Origin: Helicobacteraceae bacterium
GTDB taxonomy: Bacteria > Campylobacterota > Campylobacteria > Campylobacterales > Sulfurimonadaceae
Length of the DNA: 34,751 nt
Direction of reading: 5' to 3'
Assembly (NCBI GenBank): GCA_015488775.1
Contig: WFNF01000001.1
Span: forward strand, 1-34,751
This document shows positions 20,445-28,838 of this stretch, in pieces. A program made the position numbers and the translations under genes. The notes under the pieces are model-generated. The model ran no database searches and had not been told where the DNA came from. It saw only the letters and a list, made by a program, of their open reading frames with translations. Position 1 is the first letter of the stretch; the number at the start of each line of letters is the position of its first letter.

Positions 20445-20470
20445 ATAACTATATAATACATAGGATGTTA

Positions 20471-22315
20471 ATGAAATTTTTATTTATGCTATCACTACTA
20501 TCATCATTGTTACTTTCAAACGAAGATTTAAGTTTAGAGGAAGATTTTTTACAAAGTTTAGATGAAGTGAGTGAAATTGCTACCAAAACTAAACTAAATA
20601 TTGATGACTCACCATCTTTTGTAAGTGTACTTACACAAGAAAAACTACAAAAACTTGGGATAGATAATGTTTATGAAGCATTAGCACAAGTTCCAGGGGT
20701 ACAACTAAAAAGAGAGAGAAGTGGAGTACCAGTTGTAGTTTTTAGAGGAGTAGAACAAAAGGGGGAAGTTAAACTTATGGTAGATGGGGTTACTATAAAT
20801 AACTCTTATCGTGGATCTATATACTACTACCTTGATTTTCCAATAGAGTTAGTTGAACGCATAGAAGTTATACGTGGAGCAGGATCTGTGTTGTATGGAA
20901 GTGGCGCTATAAGTGGCGTTATAAACATCATCACAACAAGTTCAAGTAAAAATGATACAAATAAACTTTTTATATCAGGTGGAACTTACAATAACTATAA
21001 GGGTGGAGCGGTACTTTCTGCAAATATTGAAGATGTAAAAATCGCACTTGATGCTTACTATCAAGATAAAAGAGTAGATATTGATTCAACAGATAGAGAC
21101 TTAAAGGACTACTCTGCTGGAGTTAAAATCAACAATGAAAATTTTGCACTATTAGCAAGAGTTAAACGCTCAATCTCAGGAAATGCTTATGGAGTGTTAG
21201 GTGTTCGTGACACTAGTAAAACAAACTATAGCAATGCTAATGACTCGTTTTTTACTCAACTAGCATTTAAAAACAAGCTTGGTAAAGAAAACAACATAGA
21301 AGTACTAGCGGGATTTAATCAATACTCACAAGATATAGAATCAAAACACCCATCTTCTTCTACAGTAAATCTTTCCTACCTTGAAAACTCATACTATGCG
21401 CAAAGTGATTTTAAATCATCTTTTTTAGAAAATAATGAGTTACTACTAGGAGTTAGACTTGAAAAATCTGATGTAAAAAACATTTCACAAACACTAAATA
21501 GTGTGAATATAACTCCATTAGTTGATAAGAACTCATCAAGAGATTCTATCTCTGCATATCTAAATGACACCTATACACTTTATGATGATTTTGATATCTC
21601 TTTTGGGATTAGGTACGATATGTATTCAGATGTTGGAGATGCAGTTTCACCAACTATGGGTTTGATATATAGAGTAAATAAAAAACTTAAGCTAAAAGCC
21701 TTATATACTCATGCTTTTCGCGCACCATCATGGGTAGAGTTAACATCTAATCCTGTGCTTGAGGCGGAAAGTTCAATATCTAGTGAATTAGGCTTAGTGT
21801 ACAAATATAATCAAAACAACACCTTACGCACAAACTTTTATAAAACTAAACTTGAAAATATGATTACACAATCAATATCTAGAAAATATATTCAAACAGA
21901 AAAATCTGCTTTTATTGGTGGTGAATTAGAATACCACTACACTCCAACTAATCAGCTAGAACTTGACCTTTTAGCTTCATATGTAGATGCAAAAGACAGT
22001 AGTGGTAATAATATAGCTGACATAGCAAATGTACTAACATCAGCATCTGCTATATATGAGTTTGACTTTGGCTTAAATATTGGAGTTTTATATAAATATG
22101 TCTCAAGTATAAAACGCTTATCTAACGACACAAGAGAAGATTTAAAAGCAAGCAATATTGTTGATACAAGCCTAACTTATCTTTTAAATGATATAACTGC
22201 TTCATTAATTTTTAAAGATCTGTTTGATCAAGGTACATACTATGCTCTACCTGTAAAAAATGACTTTTATGATGGTGGTTTTAATGCTATGGCAAAAGTA
22301 AGTTGGAACTTTTAG
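20471..22315 (+). CDS. TonB-dependent outer-membrane receptor
   Basis: This protein of about 614 residues has a signal peptide (cleaved near LLLSNED), a plug domain with the usual landmarks (DSPSFVSVLTQEKL, ALAQVPGVQL, VVFRGVEQKG, LMVDGV, VERIEVIRGAGSVLYGSGAISGVINII), and a 22-strand-type barrel ending in SWNF, a classical C-terminal aromatic. It is on the short side for the family and lacks an N-terminal signalling domain, so it is a transporter- or sensor-type receptor such as the CirA/BtuB group. The ATG at 20471 follows TAGGA by five bases; the earlier ATG at 20465 overlaps that site. It is the first gene of a tight operon with a periplasmic protein and a c-di-GMP enzyme. The ligand is unknown. 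Confidence 0.93.
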   Translation: MKFLFMLSLLSSLLLSNEDLSLEEDFLQSLDEVSEIATKTKLNIDDSPSFVSVLTQEKLQKLGIDNVYEALAQVPGVQLKRERSGVPVVVFRGVEQKGEVKLMVDGVTINNSYRGSIYYYLDFPIELVERIEVIRGAGSVLYGSGAISGVINIITTSSSKNDTNKLFISGGTYNNYKGGAVLSANIEDVKIALDAYYQDKRVDIDSTDRDLKDYSAGVKINNENFALLARVKRSISGNAYGVLGVRDTSKTNYSNANDSFFTQLAFKNKLGKENNIEVLAGFNQYSQDIESKHPSSSTVNLSYLENSYYAQSDFKSSFLENNELLLGVRLEKSDVKNISQTLNSVNITPLVDKNSSRDSISAYLNDTYTLYDDFDISFGIRYDMYSDVGDAVSPTMGLIYRVNKKLKLKALYTHAFRAPSWVELTSNPVLEAESSISSELGLVYKYNQNNTLRTNFYKTKLENMITQSISRKYIQTEKSAFIGGELEYHYTPTNQLELDLLASYVDAKDSSGNNIADIANVLTSASAIYEFDFGLNIGVLYKYVSSIKRLSNDTREDLKASNIVDTSLTYLLNDITASLIFKDLFDQGTYYALPVKNDFYDGGFNAMAKVSWNF

Positions 22316-22316
22316 T

Positions 22317-22916
22317 ATGAAAAAATTAATTTTGATTTTAATTTTCAGTGTTTCAAGTTTTGCACTAAGCATTGACAACTCTTTGCTAAAAGTTCATGCT
22401 ACATTAGTTCCTAAACTTTATCTTATGGACTATAAATTCAAGGAAAAGATAGCTAACAACACTATAAAAATAAATATTTTTTATACAAGTAATGAATATC
22501 TAAAGGCTAAAGAGTTAAAAAGTTTAATGACACATCGTTATAAAAACGGTCTTAAAGGTTATAAACTTGATGTAAAACTTGTAAAATACAGCGCATTAAA
22601 TAAACCTAAAGCAAATATTTACTATCTTTTCCCATCTGTTACAAAAGATATAAAAAATGTAGTCCAAGAAGCTAAACTATACAATGCCCTAACATTTTCA
22701 TATCAAAATGAGGCATTAAAATATGGAGTTATGATCTCTTTGAATATATCAAAAAAGCTAAAACCATTACTTAATCTTAAAGCTATACAAATAAATAATA
22801 TTGTATTTAGGCCTGTTCTTATAGATATCTCTGCAATATATAATAAAGATTTTGGTTCAAATTTAAAATATCTAAATATAAAAAATTTACTAATTAGTAA
22901 TGTATATAAAGTATAA
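22317..22916 (+). CDS. Small periplasmic protein, YfiR-like by position
   Basis: This 199-residue protein has a signal peptide (about 1-18, FSVSSFALS) and a lysine-rich mature part with alternating strands and helices (IKINIFYTSNEYLKAKELK, ANIYYLFPS, ALTFSYQNEALKYGVMISL). It starts one base after the receptor stop and ends two bases before the c-di-GMP gene. In the YfiBNR system a periplasmic YfiR (DUF4154) inhibits the membrane cyclase YfiN, and its size, NIYYLFPS-like strand order and place here fit that role. The similarity is too weak by eye to claim the family. I infer that it modulates the downstream enzyme's periplasmic domain. Confidence 0.8.
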   Translation: MKKLILILIFSVSSFALSIDNSLLKVHATLVPKLYLMDYKFKEKIANNTIKINIFYTSNEYLKAKELKSLMTHRYKNGLKGYKLDVKLVKYSALNKPKANIYYLFPSVTKDIKNVVQEAKLYNALTFSYQNEALKYGVMISLNISKKLKPLLNLKAIQINNIVFRPVLIDISAIYNKDFGSNLKYLNIKNLLISNVYKV

Positions 22917-22918
22917 TC

Positions 22919-25297
22919 ATGTTAAATTTTAATTCTATCGCCATTAAAACAAGTGCCTATATAGCACTATTTACTATAGCTTTTATTTTATTTATTATAT
23001 TTGTTGTAAAAAACCTTTTTACTGATTCTTATATAAATTTAGAAAGAGACAAGGTAGCTATAATTGCGCAAAACATATCTTCACCCTTAGCTTTAAATAT
23101 TAGCTATGGCTTCACACAAGCAATTAGTGAAATATCTAATAAAGCACTTACAAATAAAAATGTTTTACTTATAAAAATTAATAATTATGAAGACAATACA
23201 GTAAAAACTTTTACTAATCATGATAAAAATCTTAACGAGTATATAAAAGAGCATGAGATACTTCATAGTAACAAACTACTTGATCCTACAACTTCAAAAG
23301 ATATTGGTGAGCTTACTATTGTTTACTCAAATCAAACATATTTAAAATATATGAGAATTTTTAATGTGTGGTTTTTTTGGGGTGTGGTTGGCTTTGCTAT
23401 TTCACTTTTTTCATTGAGTCTATTTTTATATAAATCACTTAAAAGGCTTTCAATACTTGATGATGCATTGAAAAGTTTTAACCCTGAAAATCCAGCTATA
23501 TTAAAATTGGACATAGACACTAATGATGAGATAAGTTCTATCTCCAAATCTGCAAATATTATGATAGACAATATTATTGAGTATATCAATAACTATAAAG
23601 AGGTAACATCTGAACTTATATTAAGTCATGGACATCTTAAAGATGCACAAAGAATGGCAAGGGTTGGTAGTTTAGATTACACTATAGATACAGATACATT
23701 GATTTTGAGTGATGAGTATTATCGCATACTAGGGATTAATTTACATACTAAATTTACATGGATAGATTTTTTAAAATTTATAGACAAAACTGATTATCTT
23801 AGAGTCTCAAAAGAGATTCAAATGGCTATCTCTAATCGTTCAACCTTTAATATAAAGTATGCTTTAGCCTTAAAAAACAACAAACAAATTTTTATTCAAA
23901 CAAGTGGTAAAGTAAGACATAAAAAAGATGGAACTACAAAATTAACTGCCATTAGCATGGATATTACAAAAGATATTAAAAATAAACAAACTATAGAGAA
24001 ACTAGCTTATTTTGATTCACTTACAGGCCTAGCAAATAGAGCTCAACTAAAAAGTAAAATGGCACACTTTTTAAACTTAGCAAAAGTTGAAAAAGACAAA
24101 ATGGCAGTTATATTTCTTGACCTTGATCATTTCAAACTCATAAACGACACATTAGGACACAGTGTAGGAGATGAATTACTTAAATATATAGCTTCTACTT
24201 TGAAAGCGCAAATTGGTGAAGATGATATATTATCCAGATTAGGTGGAGATGAATTTGTTATATTTATACCATCAATACAGAGTGTAAAAGATATTAAAAA
24301 TCTTGCATCAAAAATACAAAAATCTCTTGAGCATAAACATACTATAGGGACACATCAACTCTACATAACATCAAGCATAGGTTTAGCAGTGTATCCAGAA
24401 CATGGAACTACTTCTGATGAGTTAATACGTAACGCAGATACTGCAATGTATGAAGCAAAAAATGATGGTCGTAACAAATATAAATTTTACTCAAAAGCTA
24501 TGGGTACTGTAGTAGATAAACAACTAAATATGGAACAAGATTTAGCTAATGCAATAAAAAATAAAAAAGAGATTGAGGTGTTTTATCAAGCTAAAATAGA
24601 TACTTTTTCAAAAGAGATAATAGGTGCAGAAGCCTTAGTAAGATGGAATCATCCAAAAAATGGGCTTATCTTTCCTGATGAATTTATATTTATGGCAGAG
24701 AGTACTGGTCTTATGGTCGACTTAGGAAACATCATAACAGAACAATCAATATCTACTTTAAAAGAGATAAATGAACTTAAACTCAATAAATTCAAACTTG
24801 CTATAAACTTATCTGCAAGACAGTTTCAAGATATATCCTTAATCCCATTTGTAGAAAGTATTTTACGCAAATACAAAATCTTACCTGAGCAAGTTGAGTT
24901 TGAGATTACTGAGAGTATATCTATGAGCAATATGCAAAACACTTTAAGAATTTTAACTAAACTAAGAGAGATAGGCATCTCAATAGCAATAGATGATTTT
25001 GGGACAGGACACTCCTCATTAGCTTATCTAAAAAGATTTCCGATAAATACACTAAAAATTGATAAATCTTTTGTAATGGATATAGTTGATGATGAAGATG
25101 ACAGAGTAATTACACAAACTATTATATCTATGGCTCACTCATTAGGGCTAAATACAGTAGCTGAGGGTGTTGAAACTAAAGAGCATGTTGAGATGTTAAA
25201 TGAGATGGGTTGTGACATACTACAAGGCTACTTTTACTCTAAACCTATAAGTAAAGATAAGTTTGTAGAGTTCATAAAAGAATACAAACCAAGTTAG
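22919..25297 (+). CDS. CHASE8-like/HAMP/PAS/GGDEF/EAL c-di-GMP protein
   Basis: This 792-residue inner-membrane sensor has a first membrane helix at about 13-31, a periplasmic domain (32-145) resembling CHASE8 of YfiN (KVAIIAQNISSPLALN, then a DIGELTIVYS strand), a second helix at about 148-170, a HAMP-like linker (to about 235), and PAS (240-350). GGDEF is at 442-446, but the RxxD inhibitory site is replaced by GEDD, so feedback inhibition is probably lost. EAL is at 571-573, with EFEITES, DDFGTGHSSLAYL, KIDKSF and AEGVET, so phosphodiesterase function is plausible. The output sign cannot be read. It is the last gene of the receptor operon. Confidence 0.93.
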   Translation: MLNFNSIAIKTSAYIALFTIAFILFIIFVVKNLFTDSYINLERDKVAIIAQNISSPLALNISYGFTQAISEISNKALTNKNVLLIKINNYEDNTVKTFTNHDKNLNEYIKEHEILHSNKLLDPTTSKDIGELTIVYSNQTYLKYMRIFNVWFFWGVVGFAISLFSLSLFLYKSLKRLSILDDALKSFNPENPAILKLDIDTNDEISSISKSANIMIDNIIEYINNYKEVTSELILSHGHLKDAQRMARVGSLDYTIDTDTLILSDEYYRILGINLHTKFTWIDFLKFIDKTDYLRVSKEIQMAISNRSTFNIKYALALKNNKQIFIQTSGKVRHKKDGTTKLTAISMDITKDIKNKQTIEKLAYFDSLTGLANRAQLKSKMAHFLNLAKVEKDKMAVIFLDLDHFKLINDTLGHSVGDELLKYIASTLKAQIGEDDILSRLGGDEFVIFIPSIQSVKDIKNLASKIQKSLEHKHTIGTHQLYITSSIGLAVYPEHGTTSDELIRNADTAMYEAKNDGRNKYKFYSKAMGTVVDKQLNMEQDLANAIKNKKEIEVFYQAKIDTFSKEIIGAEALVRWNHPKNGLIFPDEFIFMAESTGLMVDLGNIITEQSISTLKEINELKLNKFKLAINLSARQFQDISLIPFVESILRKYKILPEQVEFEITESISMSNMQNTLRILTKLREIGISIAIDDFGTGHSSLAYLKRFPINTLKIDKSFVMDIVDDEDDRVITQTIISMAHSLGLNTVAEGVETKEHVEMLNEMGCDILQGYFYSKPISKDKFVEFIKEYKPS

Positions 25298-25323: not shown

Positions 25324-26181
25324 TTGAACATTACAAAAGAGTGTGTAGAGTGCATCATCAACCAAAGTGCTCGTGTTGCTTCACACATAACAAAAGATGA
25401 AAAACTCACCTCAGAACTTATCTCAAACACTAAAAAACTTTCAAAAGATTTTGATTTTCAAAGTTCCCCTCCTGTAGTTGCTAAGAGAGTTTATGAAGAG
25501 TTAGCTCTTATAGCAAAAAAAACTGACTTGTACGATGAAGTAAAAAAACAATCTACTCTAAAAGCCTTAGAGTTACTTCCAAAACTAGTAGATATTATAA
25601 ACTCAACTGATCAAAGAGTTAAAGCATCTCTTAGAGTTGCAGTAGCTGGAAATGTTATAGATTTAGCAAGTGAAGTTGAGTTTGATGTTGAAGAGGAAGT
25701 TTCAAAAATAGCAAGTGTAAGCTTTGCAAAAGATGATTTTGACACTCTAATAGAAAAAATAGAAAAAGCCTCTACCCTACTTTACATAGGAGATAACGTT
25801 GGTGAGCATATCTTTGACTTTTTAGCTATAAAAACCCTAAAACAGACCTACCCAAAACTAAAAATTTACTTTATGGTTAGAGGGACTTACATCATAAACG
25901 ATGTCACTTTAGAAAACACAAAAGATTTAGAGTTCGAAAAATATTGTGAGATTATAGACTCAAAAGTTCCAACTCCTGGTTTTGTTTATAGCCTTGCATC
26001 CAAAGAATCAAAAGAGATTTTTGACACATCTGATGTTGTAATAACTAAGGGGATGGGAAATTATGAATGTTTAACACCAACACACAGAAAAAACCTAGCC
26101 TACCTACTAAAAGTGAAGTGTAATGTAGTAGCTGCACACATAAACTTGAAGCTTGGTGACTTAGTTTGTAAATTTATTTAA
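25324..26181 (+). CDS. DUF89 (ARMT1-like) metal-dependent phosphatase family protein
   Basis: This 285-residue protein shows the DUF89 layout: CVECIINQS at the start (CxxC), a helical N-terminal domain, then YIGDNVGEHIFD, FMVRGTYIINDVT, and VVITKGMGNYECL, the acidic/Asn metal-binding and phosphate-handling motifs. Characterised DUF89 proteins are Mn/Co/Ni-dependent phosphatases that remove damaged sugar phosphates; the CxxC-bearing prokaryotic branch is less studied. The start is a TTG (25324-25326), since no ATG lies near the conserved N-terminus. It ends with a four-base overlap with the convergent kinase gene. Confidence 0.88.
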   Translation: MNITKECVECIINQSARVASHITKDEKLTSELISNTKKLSKDFDFQSSPPVVAKRVYEELALIAKKTDLYDEVKKQSTLKALELLPKLVDIINSTDQRVKASLRVAVAGNVIDLASEVEFDVEEEVSKIASVSFAKDDFDTLIEKIEKASTLLYIGDNVGEHIFDFLAIKTLKQTYPKLKIYFMVRGTYIINDVTLENTKDLEFEKYCEIIDSKVPTPGFVYSLASKESKEIFDTSDVVITKGMGNYECLTPTHRKNLAYLLKVKCNVVAAHINLKLGDLVCKFI

Positions 26182-28838
26182 ATATGTATCTTTTCATACT
26201 CATTTTTTAACATCTTATAAGCTTTATCATAATCATAATCTACATCTTTAGATGCGGATTTCATCTCTATATCTTTTGCAATATTGACTATGTTAACTAT
26301 GCGAAAGTTTGCGGATGAACCTTTTATGGTGTGGGCAACTTTTGTAATAATATCATAATCTTTTTTTAGTATAGATTCTTTCAAATCTATCATAGTTTCA
26401 TCCATCTTCTTTTTATAAGTGTTTAACAACATAATAATTTGATCATAATCTAACATCAACTCTTTTTGAAGAAGACTAACATCCACTCCAGATATTTTTG
26501 TTATATTTACATCTGTATCCATATTTTTCAACTTAGGCTTGATATCTGTAGTTTCTAAATATATATCAAAAACTTTTTCCAGCTCGTTTGTGATGATAGG
26601 CTTACCTAAAAATGAATCATATGCCTCAAAGATGTTAGAACCTGAGTTTTGCATAACATTAGCACTTAAAGCAACTATAGGTGTATGTAGAAGTCTTTGC
26701 TCACTCTCATACGCTAAGATTTGTGTTGTTGCTTCTCTACCATTCATTACAGGCATCTGTTCATCCATCAAAATCAAGTTATATCTATTTTTCTTAAACA
26801 TATCTAAAGCTTGTAAACCATTGTGAGCTAAAGCACATTCTAAACCGTATCTTTCTAAAAGCATAACTATAAGCTCTTGGTTTGCTACATTATCTTCAAC
26901 TACTAAAATTTTTCCTTTATAGTATTTTCTAGCAGGAGTATCAAAAACTTTTGCATCAGTTTCTGGCTTTATATTTAATGCTTCTAAAAGAGTATGATAT
27001 ATTTTAGAACAGTAAAGTGGAAATACTAAAGAGGTTATATTTTCAACTAAATCAAATTTATCATCAATTTTATCCATAATAGCTATTGATGGAACCTCTT
27101 GTTGTTTTATCTTTTTTAATGTTTCATCATCAACATCATCTATAAAAAATAGTAAATCGTAATCATTGTCATCTATGTGATCTACATCTTTTAGATAAAG
27201 ATGCATAGCCGAAAAGTAACGTTTTAATGAGTCCATTTTATCATTATTTTTAGACTTACAATAAGCAGCAAATTCAAGATTAGAAAAAAGTTGTAACTCA
27301 AACATTTTGATTGCTTCACTTGAACTTGATGTAACTGGTAAAATAAGAGTAAAAGTACTTCCTATACCTAAAGTAGATTCTACTTGTATCTCACCACCCA
27401 TATTTTCAGCCAGATATTTACATATAGAAAGGCCTAAACCTGTGCCATCAGCAGTATAAAGAGAGTTCTCCTCAACTTGAGAAAAAGCATTAAAAATTCT
27501 ATCTAAATCTTTTTTTGAGATACCAGAGCCATTATCTTTTACACTTATATATAAAATGTCGTTTTTATAAGTTGCCTCAACATTTATTTTTCCATACTCA
27601 TTTGTAAATTTGATTGCATTACTTAAAAAATTTGAGATTATTTGATTTATTCTTAACGGATCAGAATATATTTCATAAGCTATTTGTGGATCTATAAATG
27701 AGTCAATAGATATAGATTTAGAGTTTGCACTAGCTACAAAAAGTTCTAGTGTATGTGAAAACTCATCATGAAGATTAAAAAGTTTCATATCTATATTGAA
27801 CTCACCAGAACGCAGTTTTGAAAAATCTAAAATATCATTAATTATACTTAAAAGGTTTTCACCAGAGTTATGGATAATATTTAGATATTTTTTTTGATTT
27901 TTTGTTGTAACCTCATCTTGCAATAATGAAACAAAACCTAAAATTGCATTTAATGGAGTTCTAATCTCATGAGACATATTTGAAAAAAAGTACTCTTTAG
28001 CAACTGAGGCATCATTTACTTCTCTATTTGAATCTATTAGCTTAGTTACCTCATAACCAATTGCTATATACTCTGTAGTGTTGTCTAGTGGGTCAATGAT
28101 AGGAACTATAGTACTATCTATAAAAAAATGTGTTCCATCTTTTTTTCTATTTTTAATAGTGCCTCTAAAAACTTTTTTATCTTTTAGTGTATTCCAAAGA
28201 TCATCATAAAAAGCCTTACCCATATCTTCATGTCTAAGTATGTTGTGTGGTTTGCCAATAAGCTCACCCTTAGTATAACCACATAATTTACAGAGGTTAT
28301 CATTAGCATAAGTAACAATACCATCTAAGTCAGTTTTGGAAACAATTGCACTAGCATCAATAGCTTTTTTATACTCATTTAACACTTTAACATTTTTAGC
28401 TAACTCTTGCTCTTTTTCAAAAATACTTTGAGTATATTGATCAAGAACAGATGAGAAGTTTGCATCAAATATATAGTTTATCTCATTAAAAAACTCTTGA
28501 GAATCTATATTTACCTCAAAAGTAAAATCTAACATAGCTTTTTTAAAATGTGTACATATCAAAAAAAGCTCATTTGCTCTAAAATCTCTATCTTTTAAAA
28601 ATGCTAAAAACTTCATCATAACAGGGCAATCACCAAGCGCAGTTTTACCATCCACAACATTTAAAAAATAATCAAATACATTTGTACCATACATAGATAA
28701 AAATAGGTCATTCTTTACTTCATGCTTACTTAGTACATCTTTTACATTTTTATATCTAATCCAAGATTTTAAAATATCACTTTTTGATTCTTTAAAAATC
28801 TCTAAATTAGCATAAAAAATTGGCACATCGTCTTTCAT
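26178..28838 (-). CDS. Hybrid sensor histidine kinase with REC and Hpt domains
   Basis: This 886-residue cytoplasmic phosphorelay kinase starts with an all-helical sensor domain (1-150; conserved-looking GDCPVMMKFLAFLKDRDF and LICTHFKKAMLDF) with no name I know. Next come an Aer-like PAS (about 160-270, LRHEDMGKAFYDDLW), HisKA with phospho-acceptor His290 in SHEIRTPLNA, HATPase (NAIKFT, DNGSGIS, GTGLGLSI), a degenerate receiver-like segment (about 500-610), a true receiver with Asp692 in LMDEQMP, and an Hpt domain with His836 in AHTIKGSSANF. Phosphate can thus move His-Asp-His and on to an external regulator. No partner regulator is encoded nearby. It is a single gene, convergent with DUF89. 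Confidence 0.94.
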   Translation of the reverse strand: MKDDVPIFYANLEIFKESKSDILKSWIRYKNVKDVLSKHEVKNDLFLSMYGTNVFDYFLNVVDGKTALGDCPVMMKFLAFLKDRDFRANELFLICTHFKKAMLDFTFEVNIDSQEFFNEINYIFDANFSSVLDQYTQSIFEKEQELAKNVKVLNEYKKAIDASAIVSKTDLDGIVTYANDNLCKLCGYTKGELIGKPHNILRHEDMGKAFYDDLWNTLKDKKVFRGTIKNRKKDGTHFFIDSTIVPIIDPLDNTTEYIAIGYEVTKLIDSNREVNDASVAKEYFFSNMSHEIRTPLNAILGFVSLLQDEVTTKNQKKYLNIIHNSGENLLSIINDILDFSKLRSGEFNIDMKLFNLHDEFSHTLELFVASANSKSISIDSFIDPQIAYEIYSDPLRINQIISNFLSNAIKFTNEYGKINVEATYKNDILYISVKDNGSGISKKDLDRIFNAFSQVEENSLYTADGTGLGLSICKYLAENMGGEIQVESTLGIGSTFTLILPVTSSSSEAIKMFELQLFSNLEFAAYCKSKNNDKMDSLKRYFSAMHLYLKDVDHIDDNDYDLLFFIDDVDDETLKKIKQQEVPSIAIMDKIDDKFDLVENITSLVFPLYCSKIYHTLLEALNIKPETDAKVFDTPARKYYKGKILVVEDNVANQELIVMLLERYGLECALAHNGLQALDMFKKNRYNLILMDEQMPVMNGREATTQILAYESEQRLLHTPIVALSANVMQNSGSNIFEAYDSFLGKPIITNELEKVFDIYLETTDIKPKLKNMDTDVNITKISGVDVSLLQKELMLDYDQIIMLLNTYKKKMDETMIDLKESILKKDYDIITKVAHTIKGSSANFRIVNIVNIAKDIEMKSASKDVDYDYDKAYKMLKNEYEKIHI

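Follow-up and report, generated by a model that had tools for sequence, protein, structure and literature searches.

In Pseudomonas aeruginosa, the periplasmic protein YfiR bridges the outer-membrane protein YfiB and the inner-membrane protein YfiN, and it contains two conserved cysteine pairs (PMC4655355). A redox switch has been reported for both YfiR and HmsC (PMC4655355, PMC8846402). Here we describe a trio of genes on a 34,751-nucleotide stretch of a Helicobacteraceae genome (contig WFNF01000001.1, assembly GCA_015488775.1; the whole stretch is referred to as the window), which resembles YfiBNR (TpbB/DgcN; P. aeruginosa, E. coli) in its topological logic. The products are an outer-membrane protein, a periplasmic protein with a predicted YfiR fold and an inner-membrane cyclic di-GMP (c-di-GMP) enzyme with a CHASE8-like domain. 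However, YfiB is an OmpA-like lipoprotein, whereas the corresponding slot in the window is occupied by a TonB-dependent receptor (TBDR) with Plug and barrel domains, and no match to an OmpA-like protein was obtained among the nine neighbouring proteins scanned. The cyclase of YfiBNR has the architecture CHASE8-HAMP-GGDEF, whereas the window enzyme is CHASE8-like by profile-profile comparison only and additionally contains PAS and EAL domains; the YfiR-like protein in the window has no cysteines, and the PAS-GGDEF-EAL output has no I-site. YfiB and the cysteine pairs, two defining features of YfiBNR, are absent; we therefore regard the trio as probably acting in the manner of that system without belonging to it. 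The likeness to YfiBNR proposed in a preliminary description of this DNA, which already named the TonB receptor and the output lacking the RxxD site as differences, is supported by the topology and the YfiR fold.

The HmsCDE system of Yersinia pestis is similar in that a periplasmic regulator of the YfiR/HmsC family acts on a membrane diguanylate cyclase, but HmsC has redox-sensing cysteines. To our knowledge, HmsCDE includes no TonB receptor. In the FecA-FecR-FecI system, a TonB receptor relays an outside signal across two membranes. The window differs from this system in having neither an STN domain, nor FecR, nor a sigma factor; the partner of the receptor is instead the YfiR-like protein, and the neighbour is a GGDEF-EAL protein.

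The trio looks like an unrecognised route by which a surface receptor signals into the cell. We think it probable, though by no means certain, that it constitutes a relay in which the state of the receptor is passed to the YfiR-like protein, from there to the sensor and finally to the output. The YfiR fold and the conserved gene order support the three genes as a functional unit, in line with the relay suggested earlier. Open reading frames and Pfam matches placed the receptor, a 199-amino-acid exported protein and a PAS-GGDEF-EAL membrane protein on the + strand at 20465-25297. The genes form a tight unit, with 1 base between the receptor and YfiR-like genes and 2 bases between the YfiR-like and enzyme genes, as previously noted. 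The features of the unit are:

20465..22315 (alternative ATG start 20471, as taken in the preliminary description), + strand: TonB-dependent receptor, 616 amino acids (open reading frame, Pfam)
Within the receptor, + strand: signal peptide at about residues 1-18, Plug at residues 47-152, barrel at residues 163-572 (Pfam)
20558..20614, + strand: conserved pre-plug element of the receptor, LDEVSEIATKTKLNIDDSP, periplasm-facing, with an ATKTKLN core and an Asn that is invariant in the aligned receptors
22317..22916, + strand: YfiR-like exported periplasmic protein, 199 amino acids, with a signal peptide and without cysteine (DUF4154 match, fold)
22919..25297, + strand: inner-membrane c-di-GMP enzyme, 792 amino acids (open reading frame, Pfam)
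23012..23356, + strand: periplasmic CHASE8-like/PDC sensor of the enzyme, residues 32-146, between two membrane helices and followed by a HAMP-like linker (model, profile-profile comparison)
23705..23935, + strand: weak PAS domain, residues 263-339 (PAS_3, 22.8 bits, under the cut-off)
24005..24478, + strand: GGDEF domain, residues 363-520, with GGDEF intact and GEDD at the RxxD position (Pfam, sequence)
24536..25246, + strand: EAL domain, residues 540-776, with EALVR, NLSARQF, EITES, DDFGTG, KIDKSF and AEGVET present (Pfam, sequence)

Sequence searches of the PDB with profiles of the YfiR family and of the sensor family yielded nothing relevant, and a fold comparison was therefore needed. The 199-amino-acid protein scored 24.4 bits against the YfiR/HmsC-like Pfam family DUF4154 (cut-off 24.9 bits), and 31 of its 53 family members matched at E<=0.01. 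The AlphaFold model, based on an alignment of 53 relatives, had a pLDDT of 89.5 and a pTM of 0.84, with an extra C-terminal tail modelled at low confidence. Among the top Foldseek matches in the PDB were solved YfiR and the YfiB-YfiR complex, with a TM score of up to 0.79 on the target (4yna_C, E 1.3e-5) at an identity of 10-12% to solved YfiR. The same list contained single-domain and two-domain substrate-binding proteins (3lkv, 3lft) that matched as well as YfiR. Thus, based on the model, the second protein is predicted to have the YfiR fold; lack of such a similarity had been named beforehand as a ground for refuting the relay. Since there is no cysteine in the protein, and hence neither of the two conserved pairs of YfiR, a redox switch of the YfiR/HmsC type cannot operate in it.

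The third protein displayed strong Pfam matches to GGDEF (1e-49) and EAL (3.1e-72), and the catalytic motifs of both domains look intact. The position of the inhibitory RxxD site reads GEDD (KAQIGEDDILSRLGGDEF), which bears out the earlier description of a GGDEF domain lacking this site. In the model, the sensor combines a four-stranded sheet with a long helix extending from the first membrane span and with the second membrane helix. This suggests a PDC/Cache-type fold, and similar periplasmic domains were matched in sensor kinases and in a LapD orthologue. The Pfam model for CHASE8 (PF17152) did not match the window enzyme. However, alignment of the sensor family with Pfam-positive CHASE8 relatives by hhalign gave P 2.6e-7 when restricted to the periplasmic part and E 2e-17 when the membrane helices and HAMP were included; a HAMP match was seen in 7 of the 28 family members. 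The enzyme thus carries a CHASE8-like sensor, as had been proposed, by profile-profile comparison and model but not by direct Pfam match. Many of the Pfam-positive CHASE8 proteins in these genomes adjoin YfiR or a TBDR, which indicates that the same slot is occupied by both kinds of sensor.

The association of the receptor with YfiR was examined by family searches in the source genome, which identified five Plug proteins and two DUF4154 proteins. Both DUF4154 genes adjoin a Plug protein. A search of 100 relatives with YfiR only, and hence blind to receptors, matched 42 genomes, in which 54 of the 58 YfiR genes of these Campylobacterota had a TBDR in the same cluster, nearly always together with a membrane sensor, although some loci are near copies of one another and not all counts are independent. 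The TBDR was located within 400 bp in 49 cases (42 on the same strand and 7 divergent) and one gene further, with a kinase between, in 4 cases; the last TBDR is truncated and lies at the end of its contig. On the basis of the two genes in the source genome and the 54 clusters in relatives, we conclude that the trio occurs beyond chance. The output gene adjoining YfiR encoded GGDEF-EAL (19), GGDEF (15) or a histidine kinase (14), and the other 10 neighbours included contig ends, a divergent GGDEF-EAL gene and an intervening receptor, among others. A PP2C phosphatase also occurs as output beside YfiR. The output is thus swappable, and the histidine kinases and PP2C phosphatases that the receptor-YfiR pair would also feed suggest an input module of general use that is not tied to c-di-GMP. 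The order and sizes of the window genes are kept in Sulfurimonas/Helicobacteraceae relatives (L207, L212, L216, L224, L232, L234, L241) and the order recurs across phyla; the preliminary description had named its absence from related genomes as a second ground for refutation, so that neither ground applies.

The second YfiR cluster of the source genome (contig C145, L003, 4728-9650) begins with a YfiR gene, whose product scores 99.5 bits against DUF4154. Closely spaced genes for a TonB receptor, for a phosphatase of the architecture CHASE8-HAMP-SpoIIE and for a DUF6272 protein follow. The presence of both clusters in one genome suggests that the same receptor-YfiR input serves two different outputs. 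We take the DUF6272 protein to be SiaB-like, and the succession of CHASE8-HAMP-SpoIIE/PP2C and DUF6272 presumably resembles SiaA-SiaB. The cluster differs from SiaABCD in that YfiR and a TonB receptor precede these genes, and neither SiaC nor SiaD was identified beside it. The DUF6272 gene is followed by a gene for an ATPase-type kinase. A 650-amino-acid membrane protein is encoded beside the cluster (L003, 115-2067); by eye it resembles a proton-channel subunit of the MotA/ExbB type, and it had no Pfam match.

The arrangement is also conserved beyond the phylum. A contig scan with the receptor N-terminus, which is biased towards receptors, recovered the trio in metagenome-assembled genomes related to Magnetococcales and from Desulfobacterota, in beta- and gammaproteobacteria, and in Nitrospirota, Acidobacteriota, Verrucomicrobiota and Planctomycetota. 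The outputs of these non-Campylobacterota trios were mostly hybrid kinases. When YfiR genes were drawn by DUF4154 alone, a TBDR was located within 1.5 kb of 9 of 9 newly drawn Nitrospirota genes and of 13 of 21 genes in the class drawn around Denitromonas, where some of the others lie at contig ends; these counts were taken from gene orders, with the two centre genomes excluded. Natural fusions of YfiR to an output in a single polypeptide were observed in other bacteria for a hybrid kinase (L295, 3622-6384), a histidine kinase (L298, 2709-4613) and a GGDEF protein (L300, 3279-4880), which argues that YfiR acts on outputs of these kinds directly.

A substrate-binding protein of the ABC_sub_bind type takes the middle slot between a TBDR and a histidine kinase or GGDEF-EAL protein in Brocadia, Nitrospirae and Elusimicrobia:

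L222, 7905-8855: ABC_sub_bind-type protein in the YfiR slot
L240, 2701-3648: ABC_sub_bind-type protein in the YfiR slot
L239, 7884-8894: ABC_sub_bind-type protein in the YfiR slot
L255, 7934-8908: ABC_sub_bind-type protein in the YfiR slot
L263, 2910-3866: ABC_sub_bind-type protein in the YfiR slot

The hhalign comparison of YfiR with these proteins was unconvincing (P 0.0022, probability 13%). We therefore claim only that they share the slot and a similar fold.

The receptor matched the Pfam models for Plug (87.7 bits, 8.9e-25) and the TonB barrel (100.2 bits, 3.2e-28). Its closest NCBIfam models are of the BtuB/heme type, every one far under the cut-off, and its nearest solved structure is the colicin I receptor. 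No Pfam match to an STN signalling domain was found in the receptor, in which about 30 residues separate the signal peptide from the plug. The pre-plug element, ATKTKLNxD with the invariant Asn, is common to window-type receptors in YfiR clusters and is located at the canonical TonB box site of transport receptors. None of 33 sampled receptors from outside such clusters had it, and its occurrence in the sample was confined to receptors inside them (Fisher p 5e-6, a descriptive value, since the regular expression was devised after the sequences had been inspected). Of the 37 TKTKLN-bearing receptors in the genome-contig scan, 25 lie no more than 2.6 kb from YfiR, and many of the others were at contig ends. 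In a second type of receptor beside YfiR, the pre-plug element is a different one, SELKAEVGSRSG. At one locus (L340), a 379-amino-acid reading frame beside YfiR contains ADLSLQDLLRLEI at its start, as in signalling-type receptors, and does not match the receptor profile; the receptor slot may be occupied here by an outer-membrane barrel of another kind.

In the relay that we propose, an extracellular ligand would bind the TonB-dependent receptor, and the periplasm-facing pre-plug segment would then alter its hold on the YfiR-like protein. Binding of the latter to the CHASE8-like domain of the enzyme, or its release, would switch the GGDEF-EAL output and thereby c-di-GMP turnover. The physical contact between receptor and YfiR-like protein, the direction of control, the net activity of the enzyme and the ligand are elements of the relay that we infer. 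The receptor may be a nutrient receptor, and its occupancy may set the c-di-GMP level. In favour of the relay are the tight spacing and wide conservation of the gene unit, the YfiR fold and the CHASE8-like sensor, the swappable outputs, the fusions of YfiR to outputs, the pre-plug element of the cluster receptors and the bridging role of YfiR in P. aeruginosa. Several observations weigh against such a relay. The pre-plug element may be a mere variant of the TonB box, and four YfiR genes of relatives have no nearby TBDR (L039, at a contig end, L060, the first copy in L071, and L087), as is also the case within 1.5 kb for some YfiR genes in the class draw. Distances among TBDR, YfiR and sensor were highly correlated in Mantel tests (r 0.90-0.91), but the correlation with the GGDEF output was similar (0.89) and the values also reflect shared ancestry, which was not removed and makes this weak evidence for the relay.

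The main rival is that the receptor is an ordinary transporter and that the YfiR-like protein, similar to one part of a substrate-binding protein, binds the ligand once imported into the periplasm, the complex then acting on the sensor as LuxP does on LuxQ, so that contact between receptor and YfiR would be unnecessary. The substrate-binding proteins in the middle slot fit this explanation, as do the matches of the window model to 3lkv and 3lft alongside YfiR, a likeness of YfiR that has been pointed out before (PMC4655355), and the lack of a FecA-type signalling domain in the receptor. However, the sequence comparison of the two families was not significant, a two-lobed clamp would need a larger protein than YfiR, and the special pre-plug element is left unexplained, and we consider import followed by sensing possible but rather unlikely. 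It is improbable that the genes merely share expression, with the YfiR-sensor pair sensing another cue such as redox or envelope stress and the nutrient receptor not being the input. YfiBNR and HmsCD do respond to redox conditions in the periplasm or to the state of the envelope (PMC4655355, PMC8846402) and some YfiR-sensor pairs have no receptor nearby, but the pairing persists across phyla despite varied outputs and orders, with some receptors divergently oriented and others separated from YfiR by a kinase, and disulfide sensing is excluded for the cysteine-free window protein. A chance neighbourhood of unrelated genes, for which we found no point in favour, is refuted by the conserved order and its probability is negligible.

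In 12 clusters of relatives, a GNAT-type gene located just upstream overlaps or touches the start of the receptor gene:

L034, L043, L045, L046, L050, L054, L056, L058, L059, L062, L064, L066: synthase-like gene upstream of the TBDR

Acetyltransf_5 was above the cut-off in 6 of 6 tested proteins; Autoind_synth and FeeM matched weakly, the former above the cut-off in 1 of 6, and TIGR03694 was under the cut-off. The motifs DxYD, G.PT and ExSRI are retained in nearly all copies. Searched with the GNAT-type protein only, 100 relatives gave 14 credible copies, of which 12 adjoin a TBDR and 2 are near GGDEF or EAL genes; the source genome has no such gene. Since a gene resembling autoinducer synthases touches the TBDR gene, the ligand in this subset might be self-made. 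A broader and more speculative proposal, which we regard as unlikely in its entirety, is that such receptors are dedicated signal receptors, distinct from FecA-FecR-sigma, that act through a YfiR or substrate-binding-type adaptor on any of four outputs. In one subset, with a self-made N-acyl ligand from the autoinducer/FeeM-like acyltransferase gene touching the receptor gene, they would form a TonB-receptor quorum-sensing relay into c-di-GMP.

The periplasmic sensor domains of many bacterial c-di-GMP enzymes and hybrid kinases have unknown inputs. Should YfiR receive its signal from a TonB receptor, the inputs of a whole class could be found via the receptor ligand. The relay, if true, would represent a second general signalling mode for TonB receptors, and YfiB-type systems would be a special case within a wider family of YfiR adaptors. 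The synthase-linked subset permits a direct test of self-signalling. We found no description of a TBDR-YfiR-sensor arrangement in the literature covered, with preprints and most subscription journals outside the scope, so that absence is not proof. HmrABCX of Caulobacter was considered as a precedent and rejected, since HmrC is located in the inner membrane and HmrB is a putative phosphotransferase.

An ARMT1-like phosphatase gene (25324-26181) starts 26 bases downstream of the operon; no sign of its conservation with the trio in relatives was seen, with no gene-by-gene check made. It overlaps by 4 bp with a convergent gene for a PAS hybrid histidine kinase (26178-28838).

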